NCBI GenBank assembly: GCA_900321255.1
Contig: ONVK01000033.1
Span: forward strand, 1 to 32,670
DNA length: 32,670 nucleotides
Reading direction: 5' to 3'
Origin: an uncultured Lentisphaerota bacterium
GTDB taxonomy: Bacteria; Verrucomicrobiota; Kiritimatiellia; RFP12; UBA1067
The translations under genes and the position numbers were made by a program. The notes beneath the pieces were generated by a model. It had not been told where the DNA came from, did not search any database, and saw nothing but the letters and a program-made list of their open reading frames with translations. Of this stretch, positions 4,292-19,374 are shown in pieces; within the stretch, counting starts at the first letter, position 1, and every line of letters starts with the position of its first letter.

Positions 4292-5686
4292 CTACCTTAC
4301 AATCTTAGCCTCTATCTTTTTCTTTACCACATCCAGCGCGGCGGTTGCGTCGGCTTTCAGCTTGCGGGCTTCGGCGCGGATGGATGATGCTTTTAAAGCT
4401 ATTCCATCTTGCATAGCAACATCAGGAAGTATCAAGGGCAACTTATTCAGCAGCTCCAGCGAAACATTGTTGATGTTTGTGCCACCAAGATGTCGAAATA
4501 TTAGTCCTCTGAAAATCGACGATTGCATGTATGCGGCCACGTATTCAGGGTTCACTCCCGCGTCTGTGCGCAACACCATCATAAACCCACCGATATAAGT
4601 GTCATCGGGAGCATTTTTAACGTACGCAACCTTGCCGGCGTGCTCCTTACTCCCACTTGCCGCGCAAATCAAAATATCGCTGTCCTTAATCTGTTGTGCA
4701 GGGCTAAACGTCAAATCAGAATTTACATGCACCAAATCAGAAAGGTCAAGTTCGAATTTTTCGAGAGAGACATTGTTTGCTCGAAGAATGGCATGGCCAC
4801 ACTCTGCTTCGTCCTCGGATTTATATGTCACGCCTCTGACAAATGTCCCAACCGAACCCAAACGGCAACACCGTTTGTCCTCCCGGATCAAATCCGCCAA
4901 ATCGCGGAAGAAATTTTGATTGTAGTGTGCATCAAACCTATCGTTAAGGACTTCCTTCGCGGGTACGGTGAAGATGCGAGAGGAAAGCGATGTGTCGGGC
5001 TTGGGGAGCTTGGCGATGCCGAGCTCGTTCAATACCATGTCGTCGATGGAAGCGAGAAGGTTCGTCGCCTTTTCGTCCGCCGCGCGCTTTGCCGCGTATG
5101 CCGCATCAAGCTCGGCAACGATCTTCCGCTGCTCCGACAAGGGCGGCAGGGGGATGGACAAATCCATCAACTGCTCGGTATTGAGACTTTGAACCGTCGC
5201 ACCACTCTTGCACACCAGCGGCAGCAACCGCGAGCCAAAGACATCGAAGAATGCGCCCAGATAATCCACACTCACGCGATCATCAGGAAAGAACGCCTTG
5301 ATGTCCTGATTGATCGTCGTCGGTTTGTGCGTGACCATTACCGGCAATGTGTGTTGCAAAATCCCACTCCGGCTTACCATGAGAACCGCCGGACGATTCA
5401 CGTAGCAAGTCGTGGATTCGGCAAGCGCCAATTCGGTAACATGATCTTCCGAATCCTCAAACCGAAATGCCTTGAAATCCTTTGCCGACACCCACGGAAT
5501 CGATCCGTTCCAATATTCCGGATGGGCGGTGGACGGCGTTCCGCCCGTGCGGAAATAGGACAATGACAACAACTTTGCAGACGGATAAGTCGATCTGATT
5601 CGCGTCCGTCTCAATGCATGATGATACTCAGGATCCAGCCGCCTACCATGCGCTTCAGACGCCTTTATCGTAAACATCTTGCCCAT
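4292..5686 (-). CDS. hsdS: type I restriction-modification specificity subunit HsdS
   Basis: This 464-residue DNA-recognition subunit has the standard HsdS layout: target-recognition domain 1 (about 25-175), a conserved helical spacer with PLPPLSEQRKIVAELDAAY around 175-200, target-recognition domain 2 (about 235-415), and a second helical spacer at the C-terminus. It directs the methylase/nuclease partner to a bipartite recognition site. It starts 2 bases after the yhcG stop with GGGAAAG as ribosome site. The second recognition domain is visibly more AT-rich than the first, as expected where recognition domains are swapped by recombination. The recognised sequence cannot be predicted by eye. 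Confidence 0.93.
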   Translation of the reverse strand: MGKMFTIKASEAHGRRLDPEYHHALRRTRIRSTYPSAKLLSLSYFRTGGTPSTAHPEYWNGSIPWVSAKDFKAFRFEDSEDHVTELALAESTTCYVNRPAVLMVSRSGILQHTLPVMVTHKPTTINQDIKAFFPDDRVSVDYLGAFFDVFGSRLLPLVCKSGATVQSLNTEQLMDLSIPLPPLSEQRKIVAELDAAYAAKRAADEKATNLLASIDDMVLNELGIAKLPKPDTSLSSRIFTVPAKEVLNDRFDAHYNQNFFRDLADLIREDKRCCRLGSVGTFVRGVTYKSEDEAECGHAILRANNVSLEKFELDLSDLVHVNSDLTFSPAQQIKDSDILICAASGSKEHAGKVAYVKNAPDDTYIGGFMMVLRTDAGVNPEYVAAYMQSSIFRGLIFRHLGGTNINNVSLELLNKLPLILPDVAMQDGIALKASSIRAEARKLKADATAALDVVKKKIEAKIVR

Positions 5687-5688
5687 GG

Positions 5689-6795
5689 TTATTTCTTTCC
5701 CTTCCGAACCCGCACCTTTGCCACCTTTTGCGGCGCGGCAAGTAGTCGCGCTTCTTCAAAGGCGGCGCGTTCGCGCTGGAGCTCCCTTCGCAGCTCCTCT
5801 TCCGTCGGCAGGTTCAGGTGATACTTCACCGCAAAGAGATTGCGCTCGTGCTCGTTCAGTGTATAGCGGATCACCGCCTCGTCACGATCAGAACCAAGGA
5901 CAATGCCGACTGGTGGATTGTCACCGGGATTCATACGCTCGCGTTCGTAGTAGTGCTTGTAGAGCTGCATCTGCCCAAGGTCTTCGGGCGTGACCTTGCC
6001 AACCTTCAAATCGACCAGGAAGAAGCAACGCGCAAGGAAGTTGTAGAAAACGAGATCGCAATGATAGACCTCATTGCCAACGTGAATCGGGCACTGCTCG
6101 CCGACCAATGCAAAGCCGCGCCCCAACTCCAACAGGAACTTCCCCAAATGACGGATAAGCCCCGCCTCCAAATCTGCTTCCTTGTAGGCAAACGGAGAAA
6201 CACCCGTGAACTCCAAGATCGCCGGACTTCTCACAATGTCCTTCGGTTCCGGACGACTGCGCTTCACATAACCTGACGCCTTCTTGAGATCGACATGATT
6301 CGCAAGCAACCGTTCGTAGAACTGCGTCGAGATCTGCCGCTGTAGGTCGCGCACTCCCCATCCGGACTTGGCACACTCTTCGAGATAGAACTGCCGTTTC
6401 TTGGCATTTTCAACGCTCGCTAACGTACGATAATGGGACCAGCTCAATTGGTCACACAGTGTGTGACGATTTGGGAATGCAAGAAATACCAGTCGCATGT
6501 ACTTGAGGTTTGTCGATGTGTAGCCGGGGCCGAACTCCGCCGTCAATTTCAGCGAAAGACCCTTGATGAGACCATCACCGTACTTCGCACGTTCCGCCCC
6601 GCCCTGCTTCTCGACAATCTCACGCCCGACATTCCAATAGGCGGCAACCATCTCCTTGTTGGCAACGGTATAAACCTTCGCACGTGCCTTCGCGATATAC
6701 GACCGGACGCTCTTGTACAGTTCCGCCTCGACGGATTCGACGACCTCGACATCCGGCGTGATCAAAGCAGCCTTTGCCTTGCGTGCTTTCTTCAT
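5689..6795 (-). CDS. YhcG/DUF1016 family PDDEXK nuclease
   Basis: This 368-residue protein has an N-terminal DUF1016 helical domain (about 25-165; YWNVGREI and LSWSHYRTL are characteristic). A YhcG-type PD-(D/E)xK nuclease domain follows (about 195-340). Likely catalytic residues are D247 in HCDLVFYN and D262-L-K264 in FLVDLKVGK, with Q275 and Y279 of the Q-x3-Y motif following. The tail is basic. Members commonly sit between hsdM and hsdS, where their role in restriction is unresolved. The start overlaps the upstream gene's stop by ATGA, and the run of G just upstream serves as ribosome site. Confidence 0.9.
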   Translation of the reverse strand: MKKARKAKAALITPDVEVVESVEAELYKSVRSYIAKARAKVYTVANKEMVAAYWNVGREIVEKQGGAERAKYGDGLIKGLSLKLTAEFGPGYTSTNLKYMRLVFLAFPNRHTLCDQLSWSHYRTLASVENAKKRQFYLEECAKSGWGVRDLQRQISTQFYERLLANHVDLKKASGYVKRSRPEPKDIVRSPAILEFTGVSPFAYKEADLEAGLIRHLGKFLLELGRGFALVGEQCPIHVGNEVYHCDLVFYNFLARCFFLVDLKVGKVTPEDLGQMQLYKHYYERERMNPGDNPPVGIVLGSDRDEAVIRYTLNEHERNLFAVKYHLNLPTEEELRRELQRERAAFEEARLLAAPQKVAKVRVRKGKK

Positions 6796-8939
6796 CGCCC
6801 GCCCCCCTCTTCAGCTGCCGCATTGATGAACTTCGCCAACTCCGCGCCGATCTCGTCCAGCTCGTTGACCTTGGTCGGCTTGCCGGTCGCGTCAAAGCCA
6901 ATGTCGTCGGCAATAGCCATGAAGATGTCCTCGTCCGGGAAGGCCTCCGCCGCGGCGGACTTGTATTCGGAATCAAGCTTGTCGCGCAACTCGGCGACGG
7001 CCTTCTCCGCGACTGCGGCGATCTGATCCGCCGTCGCCTTGTACTCGGGAATCTCCTTGCGCTCCTTCGGCTTGAGCGCGGCAAATTCAGCCCGCTTGTC
7101 GAGCTTTGCCAGCTCCGCCTTGCGCGTCTTCTCAATCTCGACAAGACGCTCGACAAGCTTGCCCTTCTCCGCGATCTTGCGCTGAAGAGACTCTTTGCCC
7201 ACACGCAGTTTCTCCGTCTCGCGCTTCGTGCGCTTGCGGAGGAACAGCACCGAACTCTTCACGCCTGCGCCCGTGCTCATGAACGTGGTCTGCGGAAGCG
7301 ACACCACTGCCAAGACGCGGAACTTCTCCATCATCCAGTCACGGACATACTGGAGCGAGGCATTGGTCAGAATCCCGTCTGGAATGACGATTGCGAGATA
7401 GCCACCTTCGACGAGGAAATGCCAACATTGCTCGATGAACAATATCTCAGACGACACGCCCGGACGTTGCGCCGCCTTGGACTTCGGATTGAGCCAATCC
7501 ACTCCGCGCTCAGCAAGCCCATACAATCCCAAGTAGGCATGCTCCGTCTGTTTGATGGTGGAACCGAACGGCGGATTGGTGATGATACAGTCAAAGCTCT
7601 CGTCCTTGAAACCCCTGTTCCCACTCTTTGTTGCGATATCCCCAATCGGCTGGAGTCCGTCAGCCGCCACGACGTTCGTATGGCCATCGTCATGGATGAT
7701 CATGTTCATCTTCGCCGTCCGCGCAATCTGCTCGTTGATCTCAATGCCGAAAAGCCGCTCCTGCGCGAACCCATGCCAGCTCTTGTAACAGCCGATGGTC
7801 GTTGCGCCGTACTTCTTCTCTGCCGCCTTGCGCACCTTGTCGAGCGCATGCAGTAGAAATCCGCCCGACCCGCAGGACGTGTCAAGGACGCGCCAGTTGC
7901 TCGCTATCGGCAGGACATCAACGATAAACTTCACCACCGCCCGAGGCGTGAAGAACTGCCCGAAGTTGCCCCGAAAGAAGGACGTCATGAACGTCTCGAA
8001 TGCACGTCCTTTCGAATCAAGATCTGTCTCGGTCAGGTTGACATCCTCAAGATAGGAAACAACAGTACGAACCTTGGCCGGAGAAAGCCGAATGTCATCC
8101 TTGAACACTTCAGGCGCCTGCTTGCGTCCCTCGGCATAGAGGTCTTTTAGCCGCTTCAGAAGTGCCGCGTTCGTCTGTTCCGGAGTATCTTCGGCAATCA
8201 CCTGAAACGCATAAGGATCGCCGTCTTCGCGATCTTCCTTGCGCTCATCCCAAATCTTGCAGAAGATCAGTTTGTCGAACTCGTCGAATGCGTCGGACGG
8301 ATTCAGCTCGCCGCCACCCCACAGCGCCTGATGCGCCTGGGCGAAACGATGGGTCAATTCGTCTTCCGTCACTTGCTTCAGCGCAAAGGTCTTCTGCCCG
8401 TGCTTCCCGATGCCGCCGTTGACACCATAGCGGTATTCCGAAATGTACATCGACCCAAAGCGCGGAATGTCCGCAACCGTTTTACGCGCCTTGGGCTTCT
8501 TGTCCGGAACTTCGTAATACTCATTCTTGATCCCGGATGTCGTCCAGACATAACGCGCCCCTTCCGACACCGCATAACTGAACGCCTGTTCGACCGCCTG
8601 ACGGAATTCGGCCTCTGTCACCTCCACCTTCTTGCATTCGACGATGATGATCGGCATTTCGTGCTTTGAATCGGCATAGACCTCGATGTCGGCCTCGCGC
8701 AACGACGAACCTATTGTCACAGGCGCAAACAGCTGGATGCGGTCATCGGGATATTCATACTGCAAGACCAGCGTCAAATAGGCCTTGGCCTCGATAATCG
8801 CCTCCGGCTTCGTCCAATCGCGCGAAATCCCATGCCGAAGATACTCGATCCGCTTCCCGTCATCGTCGATGCGTATCAGCTTCTTCGCCACACCCTGCGC
8901 AATTAGGTCGTCACTCTGCGTAATCAGTTTTTTCTTCAT
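6792..8939 (-). CDS. hsdM: fusion of an HsdR-N-like PDDEXK nuclease domain and an HsdM-type N6-adenine methylase
   Basis: At 715 residues this is about 200 longer than a usual HsdM. The N-terminal domain (about 1-190) carries a PD-(D/E)xK nuclease core: D84 in READIEVY, E101-x-K103 in IIIVECKK, and a downstream Q-x3-F-S-Y. The methylase follows: QFFTPR at 328-333, SAM-binding motif I LDTSCGSGGF at 352-361 and catalytic NPPF at 455-458. A charged coiled coil (about 585-670) precedes the acidic C-terminus. Together with HsdS this layout resembles BcgI-type (type IIB) or related single-chain RM enzymes. No ATP-dependent motor domain is present here; a conventional hsdR could lie beyond the left edge. 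A GAGG precedes the ATG, and a promoter is at 8974-8979. Confidence 0.92.
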   Translation of the reverse strand: MKKKLITQSDDLIAQGVAKKLIRIDDDGKRIEYLRHGISRDWTKPEAIIEAKAYLTLVLQYEYPDDRIQLFAPVTIGSSLREADIEVYADSKHEMPIIIVECKKVEVTEAEFRQAVEQAFSYAVSEGARYVWTTSGIKNEYYEVPDKKPKARKTVADIPRFGSMYISEYRYGVNGGIGKHGQKTFALKQVTEDELTHRFAQAHQALWGGGELNPSDAFDEFDKLIFCKIWDERKEDREDGDPYAFQVIAEDTPEQTNAALLKRLKDLYAEGRKQAPEVFKDDIRLSPAKVRTVVSYLEDVNLTETDLDSKGRAFETFMTSFFRGNFGQFFTPRAVVKFIVDVLPIASNWRVLDTSCGSGGFLLHALDKVRKAAEKKYGATTIGCYKSWHGFAQERLFGIEINEQIARTAKMNMIIHDDGHTNVVAADGLQPIGDIATKSGNRGFKDESFDCIITNPPFGSTIKQTEHAYLGLYGLAERGVDWLNPKSKAAQRPGVSSEILFIEQCWHFLVEGGYLAIVIPDGILTNASLQYVRDWMMEKFRVLAVVSLPQTTFMSTGAGVKSSVLFLRKRTKRETEKLRVGKESLQRKIAEKGKLVERLVEIEKTRKAELAKLDKRAEFAALKPKERKEIPEYKATADQIAAVAEKAVAELRDKLDSEYKSAAAEAFPDEDIFMAIADDIGFDATGKPTKVNELDEIGAELAKFINAAAEEGGGR

Positions 8940-9155: not shown

Positions 9156-10244
9156 TCATGGAGTAACGGTTGGTTGCGGCGGGGGCGGGAAGAGGATGTC
9201 GAAGGTGGTGCCAACATTGAGGGTGGAGTGGCAGGCGATGTCTCCGCCGTAGAGTTCGACGATCGAGCGAACCATAGAAAGGCCGAGACCGGTGCCGGGC
9301 AGCGTACGCACGTCGGCGCAGCGGTAGAAGCGCTCGTAGATGCTGCTGACCTCATCTTCGGGGATGCCGATTCCCGTGTCCGAGACGGAAAGACGTATGC
9401 CATCGACAGCGGCGGAAAGCCCGACGCAAATGGAGCCGCCGACGGGCGTAAACTTTATCGCGTTGTCGACAAGATTGCCCACAAGTCGCTGCAGCTTGTC
9501 GGCATGTCCCATCATGAAAACCGCCTCGTCCGGCATCTCCACCTTAAGGCAGACGCCCTTCTCCTCCGCCACCGCCGCATACACGTCAACCGCGTCGCGG
9601 ACGATAGCCGACATGTCCTGCGAGGACGCGGGCGCATCTGCACATCCGCTGTAGTTGCGCGAGATCTCCGCGTTCGTGTCGATGACGCGCAGCACCGAGC
9701 GGCTCGCGGACATTATCGCGGCGGACGCCTCGTCTGCGCCGACGAGCGAATGGGAGAGCCGGTCCGCCTCGTTGTAGATGTTCGTTATCGGCGCGCGCAA
9801 GTCGTGCAGCACGTTCCTTGCGAGGTTGCGTATCTCGTCAGACTGCCGTGCGCGGACGGACTGCAGCCGGTTGAACGCGGCGGCCAGGGCGTCGATCTCA
9901 GCGATTCGCGTGTCGGCGTCCACGGGATCCGACTTGTCGCAGCGCACGAGCGCATCGACGTCTCTCGCAAACTTCTCTATCGGGCGCGTGAGCCGCCTCG
10001 ACACCATCCTGAACACTACCACGCCGACCACGGCAAAGACCGCAAACGCCATGGCGACCCACAGCGTCACCCAGACGTATTCCGCGATGACATACATGTA
10101 GCCCTCGACGTCGGTGCGCCGCAGGAGCAGCCCCGCGCCGAGGCAGAGCGCCACGCCCGAGGACAGCGCCATTGCCGCGAGAAGAAGCGGCACACCCGCC
10201 GCGTTGATCATCCGGCGGATGCTCAGTTTTCTACTTGAAGACAT
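9156..10244 (-). CDS. HAMP-containing sensor histidine kinase
   Basis: This 362-residue membrane sensor kinase has two transmembrane segments (about 17-42 and 58-79) enclosing a very short external loop, a HAMP linker (about 80-130) and a dimerisation domain with VLHDLRAPIT (phospho-accepting H147). The ATPase domain shows NLVDNAIKF (N box), DTGIGIPEDE (G1) and GTGLGLS (G2). The tiny loop suggests that it senses the membrane or a partner protein rather than a soluble ligand. The ATG at 10244 is preferred over a TTG at 10250 because AAGGGA lies 8 bases upstream. It overlaps the response-regulator gene by 14 bases and is the last gene of the RHS operon. Confidence 0.93.
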   Translation of the reverse strand: MSSSRKLSIRRMINAAGVPLLLAAMALSSGVALCLGAGLLLRRTDVEGYMYVIAEYVWVTLWVAMAFAVFAVVGVVVFRMVSRRLTRPIEKFARDVDALVRCDKSDPVDADTRIAEIDALAAAFNRLQSVRARQSDEIRNLARNVLHDLRAPITNIYNEADRLSHSLVGADEASAAIMSASRSVLRVIDTNAEISRNYSGCADAPASSQDMSAIVRDAVDVYAAVAEEKGVCLKVEMPDEAVFMMGHADKLQRLVGNLVDNAIKFTPVGGSICVGLSAAVDGIRLSVSDTGIGIPEDEVSSIYERFYRCADVRTLPGTGLGLSMVRSIVELYGGDIACHSTLNVGTTFDILFPPPPQPTVTP

Positions 10245-10896
10245 AGCCAACGTCCCTTACTGTGTGAATCACCTCTTCCGCCCCGCCCGCGGCAAGCTTC
10301 TTGCGGAGGCGGCTGACATTCGCGGAAACTACGCTGCCGACGGAGTCGATGGGCCCCCACACGTGGTCGGCAATCGTGTCGTAGGTGAGGCACCTGCCCT
10401 TGTTGCGCATCAGCAGCACAAGGAGCTTCATCTCGCGCGGAGAGAGGTCTATCGGCTGTCCGTAGCGCCTCACCGTATGGGTGTCGATGTTGACGACAAG
10501 CCCCTTCGACGACAGCACCTCGGGCTTGGAATCGGGCACAAGCCGCCGCGCGATCGCCTGCAGACGCAGCGAAAGCTCGTCGATGGATATCGGCTTGACG
10601 AGATAGTCGTCGGCGCCCATCTTGAGCCCGGCGATGCGCTCCGCCTCGCTCGCATGCGAGCTGAGGACGGCAAGGTAAGTCCTGGAACCGCGATTCCTCG
10701 CCGTCCGTATCACGTCAAGGCCGCCAAGTCCGGGCATTTCGATGTCCACAAGCGCAATGTCGTAGTCGCCTTTCAGCAACAGCGACAGGCCTTCCCTCCC
10801 GTTGCGGGCGAAGTCGCATTCAAACCCGCACATCCCAACGGCTGCGGCAGCGTGCTCAGCCGACATCTTGTCGTCCTCTATCACAAGAACCTTCAT
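10231..10896 (-). CDS. OmpR/PhoB-family response regulator
   Basis: This 221-residue protein has a receiver domain (1-120) with acidic pocket E7-D8-D9, phospho-acceptor D51, switch S79/S80 and K101, followed by an OmpR-type winged-helix DNA-binding domain (about 125-221; LSPREMKLLVLLMRNKG and VSRLRKKL). It is the partner of the overlapping kinase. The start overlaps the preceding membrane-protein gene by ATGA, with GGAGG upstream. The four 11-bp-spaced repeats at 19333-19374, in front of the first gene of this operon, have the geometry expected for its binding site. Confidence 0.95.
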   Translation of the reverse strand: MKVLVIEDDKMSAEHAAAAVGMCGFECDFARNGREGLSLLLKGDYDIALVDIEMPGLGGLDVIRTARNRGSRTYLAVLSSHASEAERIAGLKMGADDYLVKPISIDELSLRLQAIARRLVPDSKPEVLSSKGLVVNIDTHTVRRYGQPIDLSPREMKLLVLLMRNKGRCLTYDTIADHVWGPIDSVGSVVSANVSRLRKKLAAGGAEEVIHTVRDVGYVFK

Positions 10897-11654
10897 TTCC
10901 CCGCCTCCTCTTTTTTCCCTGTCTTTCGCTCTATGAGCTTTCCCGTCGCAAACTCCAGCTCATAGCGCTTGCCCTTAAGCGTCTCTAAATACAGCCTGTC
11001 CTTGCCTTCATCCCAACGCGCGACGTCATCCAACAAGACACGGCCATTAAAACGATGCGACCAAAAGTCGTAATTCGCCCATTCGTCGGCGAGCATGTAG
11101 TGTTCTGGGCCCTTGTCGCCGCCCTCACGAGATATTCTATAGTGGCCGCCGGCGAAAGTCCACACCATCCGACGCAGGTGAGGGATTTTCTTTCTCTCGT
11201 AGGTCTTCTTCCCCAAACGCTCCGCCTCTTTCTTCCGCTCAATATTCTCACGCGCGATCTCTGTATGCCCAATGTCGGCAAGGAGAATAAGGACGAGGAT
11301 CACAACGTAAAGCACGAAGCCGATTGGCAGTGCGCAAATCGAAGCAGCAAGCATCCGTCTGCCTGCCGGGCGCGCGAATCTAAAGAACAGCAAAACAACA
11401 GGCAGGACAAGCATCTCCACCGCAAAGCCAGGAGCAATAAAAACGGCAAGCCACCCGCCCGTGTTGCTAAGTGCCACGATCAGCTCGTCGGGGAATTCCG
11501 GCAGAAAACGATAAGGTGAATCGCTGACGTTCGCAAGAAGCAGAACCCCTGATACAAGCGCCAGCAGCAGCGGCGCGAGGAACGCCGCCGCAGGAAGCCA
11601 CGGACGTCGTATCAGCAATTCAACAAAGGACGATACCAAGCGCTTGATCTTCAT
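10893..11654 (-). CDS. three-helix membrane protein between the RHS gene and the two-component genes
   Basis: This 253-residue protein has three predicted membrane segments (about 18-40, 57-82 and 92-117) and a charged cytosolic-looking C-terminal domain of about 125 residues. That domain is rich in tryptophan and tyrosine and ends in a YELEFATGKLIERK-like strand. It matches no family I recognise. Its ATG overlaps the RHS stop codon (ATGA), with GGGAGG 8 bases upstream, so it is made together with the RHS protein. Its position immediately after an RHS tip is where immunity genes usually sit. An equally good alternative is a signalling adaptor between the RHS protein and the kinase that follows. 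Confidence 0.8.
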   Translation of the reverse strand: MKIKRLVSSFVELLIRRPWLPAAAFLAPLLLALVSGVLLLANVSDSPYRFLPEFPDELIVALSNTGGWLAVFIAPGFAVEMLVLPVVLLFFRFARPAGRRMLAASICALPIGFVLYVVILVLILLADIGHTEIARENIERKKEAERLGKKTYERKKIPHLRRMVWTFAGGHYRISREGGDKGPEHYMLADEWANYDFWSHRFNGRVLLDDVARWDEGKDRLYLETLKGKRYELEFATGKLIERKTGKKEEAGK

Positions 11655-14600
11655 CGTTTCCACCTCCCGCTCTCCTTGAAATGGACCTCCCACTTAAAAG
11701 GCTTTATGAAACCCAGATACTGGGAAAGACATGCAACGTCAACTCCAGCGACAACACCTAACGACTTGGCCATGTCATTTGCGCTAATGTGCGAAAGTCC
11801 CCACCACTCAAAATCGTATGTATCCGACACAGTAACGTTGAGGGCGACGCGATCAGCGCCACGAATGGGCCTGCAAACATAGCCGTCATACGATATTTCC
11901 ACCTGATGCGCGGCGGCGAAAAGATCTCCAGTAAGGAACTCTATTGACGCCGATTCGTTGACGCTGCTCATCCCGGCTGGCAGCGATTTTATCAGGCGAC
12001 GCAAATCTTTCTTGTATTCGGCGGATTCACGAATTTCCGCGATGACGGCATTTCCAATTTTGCCGCCCTCCCTGAATACCACCGGATATGTATGATCAAT
12101 CCCCAACACTGACTCTTCAAGAAGTGTTGCCGCAAAATTCCACTCCATTTTTCCCCTGAAGTACAGCACGGAAAACGCAAACCAGCACGTCCTTGGATCT
12201 GGCAGCATGTCGAGGGGATACATTGAGAGCCCCAGGTAGTCGCAGCTGTCGAGCGGGTCGTTTTCGCAGAACGCGTACAAGTTGACGCCACCTTCCTCCC
12301 CAATCGGATCACGCGTCATCCAGCGGCCAAGCACAGGTGAATAGCACCTGCATTCGTAGAGCAGAAGCCCCGTCGTCTCGTCCTGGTATTTCGTCGAGAA
12401 CCCGAAGCGGAAGTCTCCCGCCTGTTCGCCAGAGGACAAAATCACGTTGCCAAAGCAATCGTAAACGTAGCGAGCGACAAGCGAGCCCGACGCATCGACG
12501 TATGCGGTTATGTTTCCGTTCGCGTCGTAGAGCGGCACATACGCCGTGCCGTCGTGGACGAGCAAGACGAGGCCGCCTACGCCGCCCGCTCCATCGAGGG
12601 AGGAAGAGACGTCGCGCCCCCAGAAGTATTCGTCTACGCCGACATTCTCGCCGCCAGTCGTCCGCAACTCGCGCACGAGGTTCCATCCGTCGTAGAAGAA
12701 GAACGAGGTCGATTCGCCGGACGTCCTTGCGACGCGTCGGCCGAACGCGTCGTATGCGAAGGCGGCGAGCTCTTCGTTTGTAGTCGAAACCGAGTCGAGC
12801 CGAAGCGCGGAGTCGTAGCCGAAGGACTTGCCGTCAAATTCGGCGACGCAACCGTCGGCGTCCGTCACAACAGTCTCGCCGCCGAACGAGACGCATTGAT
12901 TAAGGGCATTCGCCGTGCATGCATAGACGTTCGTGCCCTGCGCGAGCGAAACGAAGTTGCCCGCATTGTCGTAGGAGTAGGCAAACGATGCTGCGGGGCT
13001 TCCGCTCTCGCAGATCTCGGCGGCAGTCGTCCGCCCCAACGCGTCATGGGCAAAGACGCTCTCGTTGCATCCGACGATTCTTCCCGACGCGTCGCGAGAG
13101 TAGTCGAAGCCCTCGACGGCAACACCGTTGACGAAGTTAGTGACAGCAACGACAATGTCGCGGCGGAAAGCGTCACGCACAACCTGGCGTCTCACGACCG
13201 TGCCGCCCGCAAGCGTCGTGACCCACCCCTCGTCCTCTCCGTCTTCGGAATACGAATAGACAATCGACGCCACGTCGTTTGAAAGCGAAGCGACCCTTCC
13301 GCGTCCATCGTAGGAAATCATCTGCCAGCGAACGCCGGGGATTCCACGCCCGCACACCCTGCCAAACTCGTCGACAGCGCGGGCGTAGGCGAATACGTTT
13401 GTGCCGACGGTCGCAGTTTCGCCCGTGGCGACGCCACCGGCGTTTCGGGTATAGGCGTATGCCGCCACTGCGTTTGACGCCGACGACATGCGGCCGAACT
13501 CGTCGTAGCCGAAAGCGGCGTCTCCCTTGCCGTCGCTTGACGACACGCCTACGAGACGGTGCGACGCGTCGTAGGAAGAACTCGACCAGGAGCCGGAGGG
13601 ATTCACCTCCTGGAGGACGGCTCCGTCACCGGCGTAAGAGTATGTCGCCTGGGAGTCGTCGGCATAGCGCTTTGCAAGGCACTTGCCAGTGTGCGGATCA
13701 TAGCTCCAAGTTGTCACATCCCATATTATACCATCTCTTGTAGTCGATAGTGACGTGCGCCGTCCGGCGGTGTCGTATGTGAATCTTGCGGGCTGCGTCG
13801 CGCCAGAGCGCTCAATGACCTTCCCCACGGCGTCGTAGCGCGTCGTGACAGCGCCACCGAGCGCATCTATCTCGAGAACGCGGTGGCCAAAGCCGTCGTA
13901 TCCATAGTGTTCAGTCGCAAAGGAATCGGCGTTTGTGTACGCGTGCTCCGCCACGAGGTCGCCAGCCGCGCTGTATTCATATGCGCTAACGATCTGGCCA
14001 CCACCCCTTGAGACGAGGACATTGCGCCCAAGCGCGTCGTAAGAGAAGAGTCGCGTTCCGTCAGCCCCCAAGGTTTCAGTCGGAAGACCGCCGAGCGTTG
14101 TGCGCGAACTGACGCCGTAGACGGAATTGCTTATAACCGTCACGCGCACTCCCGGCTCTGCGCCCGCAAACTCGCGCACATCGTCGACTATTCCCGACGA
14201 CGACAGGGTGACGACGTGGGAGACAAGGCCGTCTTCGCCAAGTCCCGTAAGCTGTGTGCGCGACTCGGAGACGGAATTGGTGACGCTGCCGACGACAACG
14301 TTCCTTTCGACACGCCACCAGACGCCAGTGCCGTCGACGCAATATTCAGAATTCCTCGTTGTCGTCACGCCATCGCAGACGCCGCCGATGCGCTCGCCAA
14401 ACGCGTTGTAGCTTGCGGTTGTCGTGCGGGAGACGCCGTCTGCCGAGAACACAGTCGCGCCGACACGTCCGCTGGAGCCGATGTATGTCGTCGCCGTGTT
14501 GCCAAGCGGCGTCTCTACGAGAACCGTTCGTCCGAGGAAGTCGGAGTGGACGATCCTGTTGGTCACTACGCCACAGTCGGAGGACTCGGATATCTCGTAC

Positions 14601-18700: not shown

Positions 18701-19285
18701 TCAGCGAATGCGTATCTTCATTGCATCGATAGTCACCGCCGCGCGGAAAGAGTCGCACGAGCCCTCCGCGCCACGCACCACAAGGCGCACCATGTTCCAG
18801 CTGGGGTCGAACATCCACGCTGGAAGAGCACCTTCCATTTCACATTCAAGCTGGACGTCGTTTTCCGTGGCGGCAAGTCTTTTCGCACGGAATCCAGATA
18901 CGTGCATGGCGAAGTCAAGCCGCTTCTCCTCGTTTGTCGTCGCTGCATCGCAGAGAAACGGCTCTTCGCCGAGACTGCGGATGAACCACTCGCCGCAATC
19001 CCACCCGACGGAAAGCCCTCGCTCGGAAACGTCAAGTACGCCGTTCGTGTTTGCGTCAAGGCCGAAAGCGACCTCGACGTTGTTGCTTTCGCAGCTCAGG
19101 AACTCAAGCGAGAACCTAAGGTCCTCCGCAGGATTTCTTGCGAGGCGGAGAGGGAAATTTGTCGAGACCTCCGTGTCTGCATAGACCCAATGCGGCATTG
19201 CACCAATGTCAATGGCCGCAAAGCAAATTTCTGCAGCCACAGCGCAAGCTGCAGAAACACCCCATTTTAAACTATTTTTCTTCAT
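18701..19285 (-). CDS. secreted small partner of the RHS protein
   Basis: This 194-residue protein has a signal peptide (KK, then a hydrophobic stretch to residue 24, ending CFA-A). The mature part is beta-rich. It contains DANTNGVLDVSE near residues 76-87, an EF-hand-like calcium loop similar in style to those in the RHS protein. I do not recognise a named family. Its stop is 12 bases before the RHS start, so the two are co-transcribed and could be exported together. AAGGGAAAA lies a few bases before the ATG. It is the first gene of the operon and lies directly behind the 11-bp repeat array. Confidence 0.82.
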   Translation of the reverse strand: MKKNSLKWGVSAACAVAAEICFAAIDIGAMPHWVYADTEVSTNFPLRLARNPAEDLRFSLEFLSCESNNVEVAFGLDANTNGVLDVSERGLSVGWDCGEWFIRSLGEEPFLCDAATTNEEKRLDFAMHVSGFRAKRLAATENDVQLECEMEGALPAWMFDPSWNMVRLVVRGAEGSCDSFRAAVTIDAMKIRIR

Positions 19286-19318
19286 CGCGTTTTCCCTTTT
19301 TGGTGGAGCAACGCGATG

Positions 19319-19324
19319 ATTCTA
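19319..19324 (-). promoter_or_regulatory. -10 box of the RHS-two-component operon
   Basis: TAGAAT on the minus strand, 33 bases before the first start codon. The first 9-mer repeat ends 8 bases upstream of it, and the repeat array occupies the -35 position, as in PhoB-activated promoters. Confidence 0.5.
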
Positions 19325-19332
19325 AAAAAGAT

Positions 19333-19374
19333 TTCCTACAAATTTCCTACAAAATTCCTACAATTTTGTAGGAA
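19333..19374 (-). promoter_or_regulatory. four 9-mer sites at 11-bp spacing, probable response-regulator binding array
   Basis: TTCCTACAA occurs on the plus strand at 19333, 19344 and 19355. Its inverse TTGTAGGAA occurs at 19366. All four starts are exactly 11 bp apart, about one helical turn, and the last two form a perfect palindrome with a 2-base centre. OmpR/PhoB-family regulators bind tandem half-sites with this pitch, and such a regulator is encoded in the operon this array controls. Confidence 0.7.

Follow-up and report, generated by a model that had tools for sequence, protein, structure and literature searches.

The closest described systems are the promoter sites of response regulators such as PhoB and PhoP. 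In E. coli K-12, the activated promoters phoA (CTGTCATAAAG TTGTCACGGCC GAGACT TATAGT) and pstS (CTGTCATAAAA CTGTCATATTC CTTACA TATAAC) consist of two 11-bp units, a gap of 6 bp, and the -10 hexamer. Structural models of PhoB with RNA polymerase require strict spacing to the core promoter elements (PMC10294691). PhoP of M. tuberculosis requires 7-bp motifs separated by a 4-bp spacer, and tandems of three or four motifs are bound better than two (PMC4832192). The boxes of Salmonella PhoP occur in both orientations and at fixed distances from the -10, with two boxes at some promoters (PMC3335776). A search of open-licence papers turned up no work on the control of Kiritimatiellae RHS genes by a response regulator.

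In the window (i.e., the whole stretch of DNA analysed, 32,670 nucleotides), direct inspection located TTCCTACAA on the plus strand at 19333, 19344, and 19355, and its inverse TTGTAGGAA at 19366. Read on the minus strand from 19375 to 19319, the region is TTTCCTACAAAA / TTGTAGGAATT / TTGTAGGAAAT / TTGTAGGAAAT / CTTTTT / TAGAAT, with a pitch of exactly 11 bp between the three direct units (Table 1). The 9-mers stop 8 bases short of TAGAAT, just as an earlier sequence-only reading of this DNA had placed them; in the 7+4 register, the final 11-bp unit stops 6 bases short. At a spacing of 16–18 bp, the best -35 candidate matched TTGACA in only 3 of 6 positions, and a sigma-70 scan reported no promoter, which agrees with the statement in that reading that the array replaces a -35 box. 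The array pattern was matched twice in the window versus 0 times in 100 dinucleotide shuffles, and the two-unit pattern (up to 3 mismatches) 11 times in the whole genome versus 0 times for a backwards-read control; a chance origin of the array was ruled out by these two controls.

The PhoB-type layout claimed for the array matched the E. coli phoA and pstS promoters to the base, i.e., in the 7+4 direct repeats, the 6 bp to the -10, the missing -35 box, and the position of the TGT core. In contrast to the E. coli pho box, the array has three direct units plus a constant inverse half-site, and its core is TTGTAGG instead of CTGTCAT. The M. tuberculosis PhoP sites share the 7-bp motifs and the strict 4-bp spacer, but their motif is TCACAGC, and a constant head-to-head inverse unit is not described in the available part of the source (PMC4832192). 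With Salmonella PhoP, the array shares the use of both box orientations and a fixed distance to the -10; that system differs by its hexamer half-sites, 5-bp spacers, and several architectures per regulon (PMC3335776), whereas the array has a single rigid architecture. Two features are unusual, namely the inverse fourth half-site, which is constant, and the shift of the box described below.

Table 1 Features of the array and of the operon behind it (positions refer to the window)
Feature	Positions	Strand	Remarks
Fourth half-site, inverse	19366..19374	+	Reads TTCCTACAA in operon direction; upstream end of the array; in 20 of 20 intact TTGTAGG arrays
Direct unit 1, TTGTAGG+AATT	19353..19363	-	
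Direct unit 2, TTGTAGG+AAAT	19342..19352	-	
Direct unit 3, TTGTAGG+AAAT	19331..19341	-	6 bp upstream of the -10
-10 hexamer TAGAAT	19319..19324	-	TATAAT in G060 and G085
Leader inverted repeat CATCGCGTT...AACGCGATG	19283..19318	-	Start codon inside the 3' arm
n194, 194 aa, first operon gene	18701..19285	-	Unknown family
RHS/YD-repeat protein, 2345 aa	11651..18688	-	Pfam RHS_repeat 4e-18; NCBIfam Rhs_assc_core 1e-20
p266, 266 aa, hydrophobic segments	10893..11693	-	No known family; 43-bp overlap with the RHS end
Response regulator, OmpR/PhoB family, proposed array binder	10231..10896	-	Pfam Response_reg 2e-21, Trans_reg_C 4e-21
Histidine kinase	9156..10250	-	HAMP + HATPase_c; motif VLHDLRAPI

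The array precedes a minus-strand operon encoding n194, an RHS protein, the putative membrane protein p266, a response regulator (RR), and a histidine kinase (HK), packed with a 12-bp gap followed by overlaps of 43, 4, and 20 bp. No Pfam or NCBIfam match was obtained for n194. Probing a sampled set of the phylum with p266 returned the window genome only; its relatives within the family came from tblastn. The window RHS protein carries both RHS repeats and the RHS-associated core domain. Its C-terminus is conserved in G085 (95%) and alignable to the end in G005 and G091 and is thus unlike a swapped toxin tip. Between the -10 and n194 lies an inverted repeat whose pairing is preserved with altered bases in G005 and G091. 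If transcription begins about 7 nt past the -10, the 5' arm would be only partly transcribed, and the repeat may therefore act either as an RNA hairpin or as a DNA site. Just downstream of the operon (4292–8939), restriction-modification-like genes were found (Methylase_S, YhcG nuclease, N6 methylase). Of these, the genes for YhcG and the N6 methylase have near-identical copies beside the operon in G090 and at most weak matches in the other relatives.

Domain profile searches identified the RR as the sole recognisable DNA-binding protein among the operon products, with the adjoining HK gene encoding its partner kinase, and its domains confirmed the earlier assignment to the PhoB-type family. 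The nearest solved relative is 1kgs (E 1e-35), and the identity to PhoB is 31%. A PhoB orthologue was considered and rejected, as the RR scored 145.9 bits against the equivalog cut-off of 296.2 for TIGR02154; the context (RHS, p266, HK, and restriction-modification genes as neighbours) also speaks against this identity, and the candidate targets are RHS clusters, unlike the phosphate uptake and PhoR-linked setting of the PhoB system. Like PhoB, the RR belongs to the OmpR/PhoB family, and it retains equivalents of PhoB R201, R203, T217, and R219, those of R201 and R219 being conserved in all orthologues compared. Within the DNA-contact set of PhoB, R201 and R219 are identical in the RR, T194 is replaced by V, and V197 by A. 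Variation in the recognition helix is expected between family members with different boxes. In PhoB, R201 and R219 contact bases (PMC3264566).

We favour, at a probability of roughly 0.8, the reading that the operon's own RR uses the array as a PhoB-type operator and activator site. The HK would phosphorylate the RR, which would then bind head-to-tail to the three TTGTAGG half-sites, with another subunit occupying the inverse half-site; the bound RR would replace the -35 box and bring RNA polymerase to the -10. Binding would lead to positive autoregulation of the RHS operon, and the same RR would drive the other array-bearing RHS-linked clusters; it would probably act on a small RNA as well. 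From the sequence comparison we infer binding by this RR, its dependence on phosphorylation, and activation rather than repression. Repression is within reach of OmpR-family regulators, PhoB itself being dual by site position (PMC10294691), and the third unit sits between the -35 and -10 positions; the array could hence be a repressor or dual operator through which the RR keeps the RHS operon silent in the absence of a releasing signal. This is unlikely, as a promoter without a -35 box should be weak on its own and the geometry agrees exactly with the activated promoters phoA and pstS.

The window genome contains four further arrays, three on contig C142 and one on C36. Those on C142 front a second RHS cluster (PA14 protein, DUF1573-DsbD fusions) with no regulator in view, and the one on C36 precedes a small-RNA-like element. 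Among the 115 genomes of the family, all of which, like every genome surveyed, are incomplete metagenome-assembled genomes (MAGs), 20 intact TTGTAGG arrays were found in six (G000, G005, G060, G085, G090, G095); each has the inverse half-site, the 11-bp pitch, and exactly 6 bp from the last unit to the -10. Damaged arrays occur in G045 and G092, and G093 has a nearly intact variant with more mismatches. An order-wide search (162 genomes) returned only isolated weak matches outside the family, and weak matches to the pattern in G030, G035, G118, G120, and on C81 of G000, isolated and with two or three mismatches, were taken as chance. Arrays were grouped into class A (in front of the RHS-RR-HK operon), class B (in front of other RHS-linked clusters), and class C (in front of a small-RNA-like element). 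The sequence-only reading had proposed self-activation of the RHS operon; the comparison supports this but makes it too narrow, since the array also stands unlinked before other RHS clusters and the small-RNA-like element and thus marks a regulon.

Class B RHS proteins differ among themselves and are more variable than the window RHS protein. On C38 of G095 (L080-L082), five consecutive cassettes are each led by an array, with RHS proteins of 1351–1819 aa that are 55–72% identical. Additionally, the ATG of a DUF1573-DsbD fusion lies at most about 8 bp past the class B -10 at two loci (L009:18086-18101 and L080, i.e., G095 C38, 12018), which suggests a leaderless transcript. On C92 of G005 (L068:10568-10677), the units are intact and the usual -10 is missing, with AAAGGGTCGGACCCTT there instead.

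Over seven representatives, positions inside the array were conserved in 6–7 of 7 and those outside in 3–4 of 7; the flanks vary between classes and the array remains constant. This bears on a reading in which the array is no operator but a terminator, a hairpin, or a mobile repeat travelling with RHS clusters: a terminator scan flagged the 8-bp stem formed by the inverse pair, class B arrays of one cluster have longer flanks in common and are in part duplicates, and class C arrays lie within a conserved block. Such a reading is very improbable. The terminator or hairpin was rejected since direct units follow the flagged palindrome, are conserved beyond it, and have the -10 downstream, in 20 of 20 intact copies at 6 bp from the array; the constancy of the array between differing flanks and the half-sites of G091, changed in concert except for one unit in one of four arrays, argue against it as well.

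The operon of G091 has diverged strongly from that of the window (identities of 42% for n194, 44% for RHS, 30% for p266, 59% for RR, and 45% for HK). Its promoter reads ACCTTACAATT / TTGTAAGGTAC / TTGTAAGGTAC / TTGTAAGGTTT / GTTTGG / TAGGAT, i.e., the inverse half-site, three units, pitch, and 6-bp gap are kept, and all half-sites have changed from TTGTAGG to TTGTAAGG. Three more TTGTAAGG arrays lie elsewhere in this genome, two of them as a divergent pair and one of the three with a degenerate first unit (CTGTAATC); the inverse half-site and the 6-bp gap to the -10 are present in all four. A joint change of all half-sites is as predicted for a sequence-specific protein with altered specificity. 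The recognition-helix position of PhoB D196 is Ser in the window RR and Gln in the G091 RR. This position makes no DNA contact in PhoB, KdpE requires Arg193 there, and the corresponding Glu215 of M. tuberculosis PhoP contacts bases (PMC3264566, PMC4832192). A link between the Ser-to-Gln exchange and the box shift, seen in one event only, is suggestive. The pair of G091 and the window offers a clean natural test of a regulator and all of its sites changing specificity together.

Of the 346 genomes of the class, 7 have an orthologue of the RR (at least 59% identity; next relatives about 43%), and all 7 belong to the family of the window. Two regulator-bearing genomes are uncultured Kiritimatiellae/Verrucomicrobia MAGs, one from goat duodenum, and the window genome shares their genus or family. 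The array precedes the n194-RHS-p266-RR-HK operon in G000, G060, G085, G005, and G091, and in G090 it precedes n194, while the RR gene is on a separate contig. The array is thus present before the RHS operon in 6 of 6 orthologue genomes with an assembled operon start, and no operon keeping the RR without the array was seen among them; G043 was left out of this check as its contig begins inside the RHS gene. Five of the seven orthologue genomes are among the six with intact arrays (115-genome family; Fisher p = 8e-7 with phylogeny ignored), the other two being G043 and G091. G095 has arrays and no visible RR; the 5' end of its operon is on C119, and the kinase gene breaks off after residue 41 where C38 ends, precisely at the expected location of the RR, which places the RR in an assembly gap. 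For class A, the co-occurrence is partly trivial and carries no independent weight, since array and RR lie in the same operon and may move together. Independent evidence of association comes from the class B and C arrays, which are unlinked.

In the incomplete MAGs G045, G092, and G093, which retain class C sites, no RR orthologue was found, one of these genomes being 91% complete. Decay or missing contigs could account for these sites, as could a DNA-binding protein other than the operon RR that reads the array. Elsewhere, the same small element stands behind another tandem box, which makes further regulators of this kind likely. A reader of this kind is nevertheless quite improbable for the window array: the RR is the only recognisable candidate in the operon, intact class A and B arrays are limited to genomes with the RHS-RR-HK operon, and the box has shifted in G091, a genome with a diverged RR.

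In class C, the array is directly followed by a short conserved segment in which two terminator-like hairpins occupy about 105 nt (fold of -44.1 kcal/mol, z -7.3), the element lying in a conserved block of about 350 bp (G000 C36 L011:5340-5500, L070, L074, L077, L186). These blocks are placed after unrelated operons, e.g., nucleoside hydrolase, GH2, and GH92/RND genes. The element probably encodes a small RNA; a search near the arrays at loci L001, L003, and L016 gave no Rfam match. In G085, G090, and G092, the class C body stands behind another tandem box, GATTTAAGATTA GATTTAAGATTC, whose pitch is 12 bp and whose distance to the -10 is 6 bp.

Tentatively, the observations could be joined into a dedicated two-component RHS regulon working through an obligatory four-site array (one head-to-head and three tandem sites) and also driving a mobile small-RNA cassette with a box that is exchanged between regulators from genome to genome, although we regard this wider picture as doubtful. 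No description of the obligatory four-site form was found for OmpR/PhoB regulators in the literature examined. A box, a candidate regulator, and a target set are proposed from sequence alone for giant RHS proteins of an uncultured gut lineage. The second tandem box (GATTTAAGRTTA GATTTAAGRTTC, 12-bp pitch, 6 bp before a -10) was located about 40 times across eight genomes (L188, L191, L195, L199-L228), which makes a second regulator of similar habit likely.
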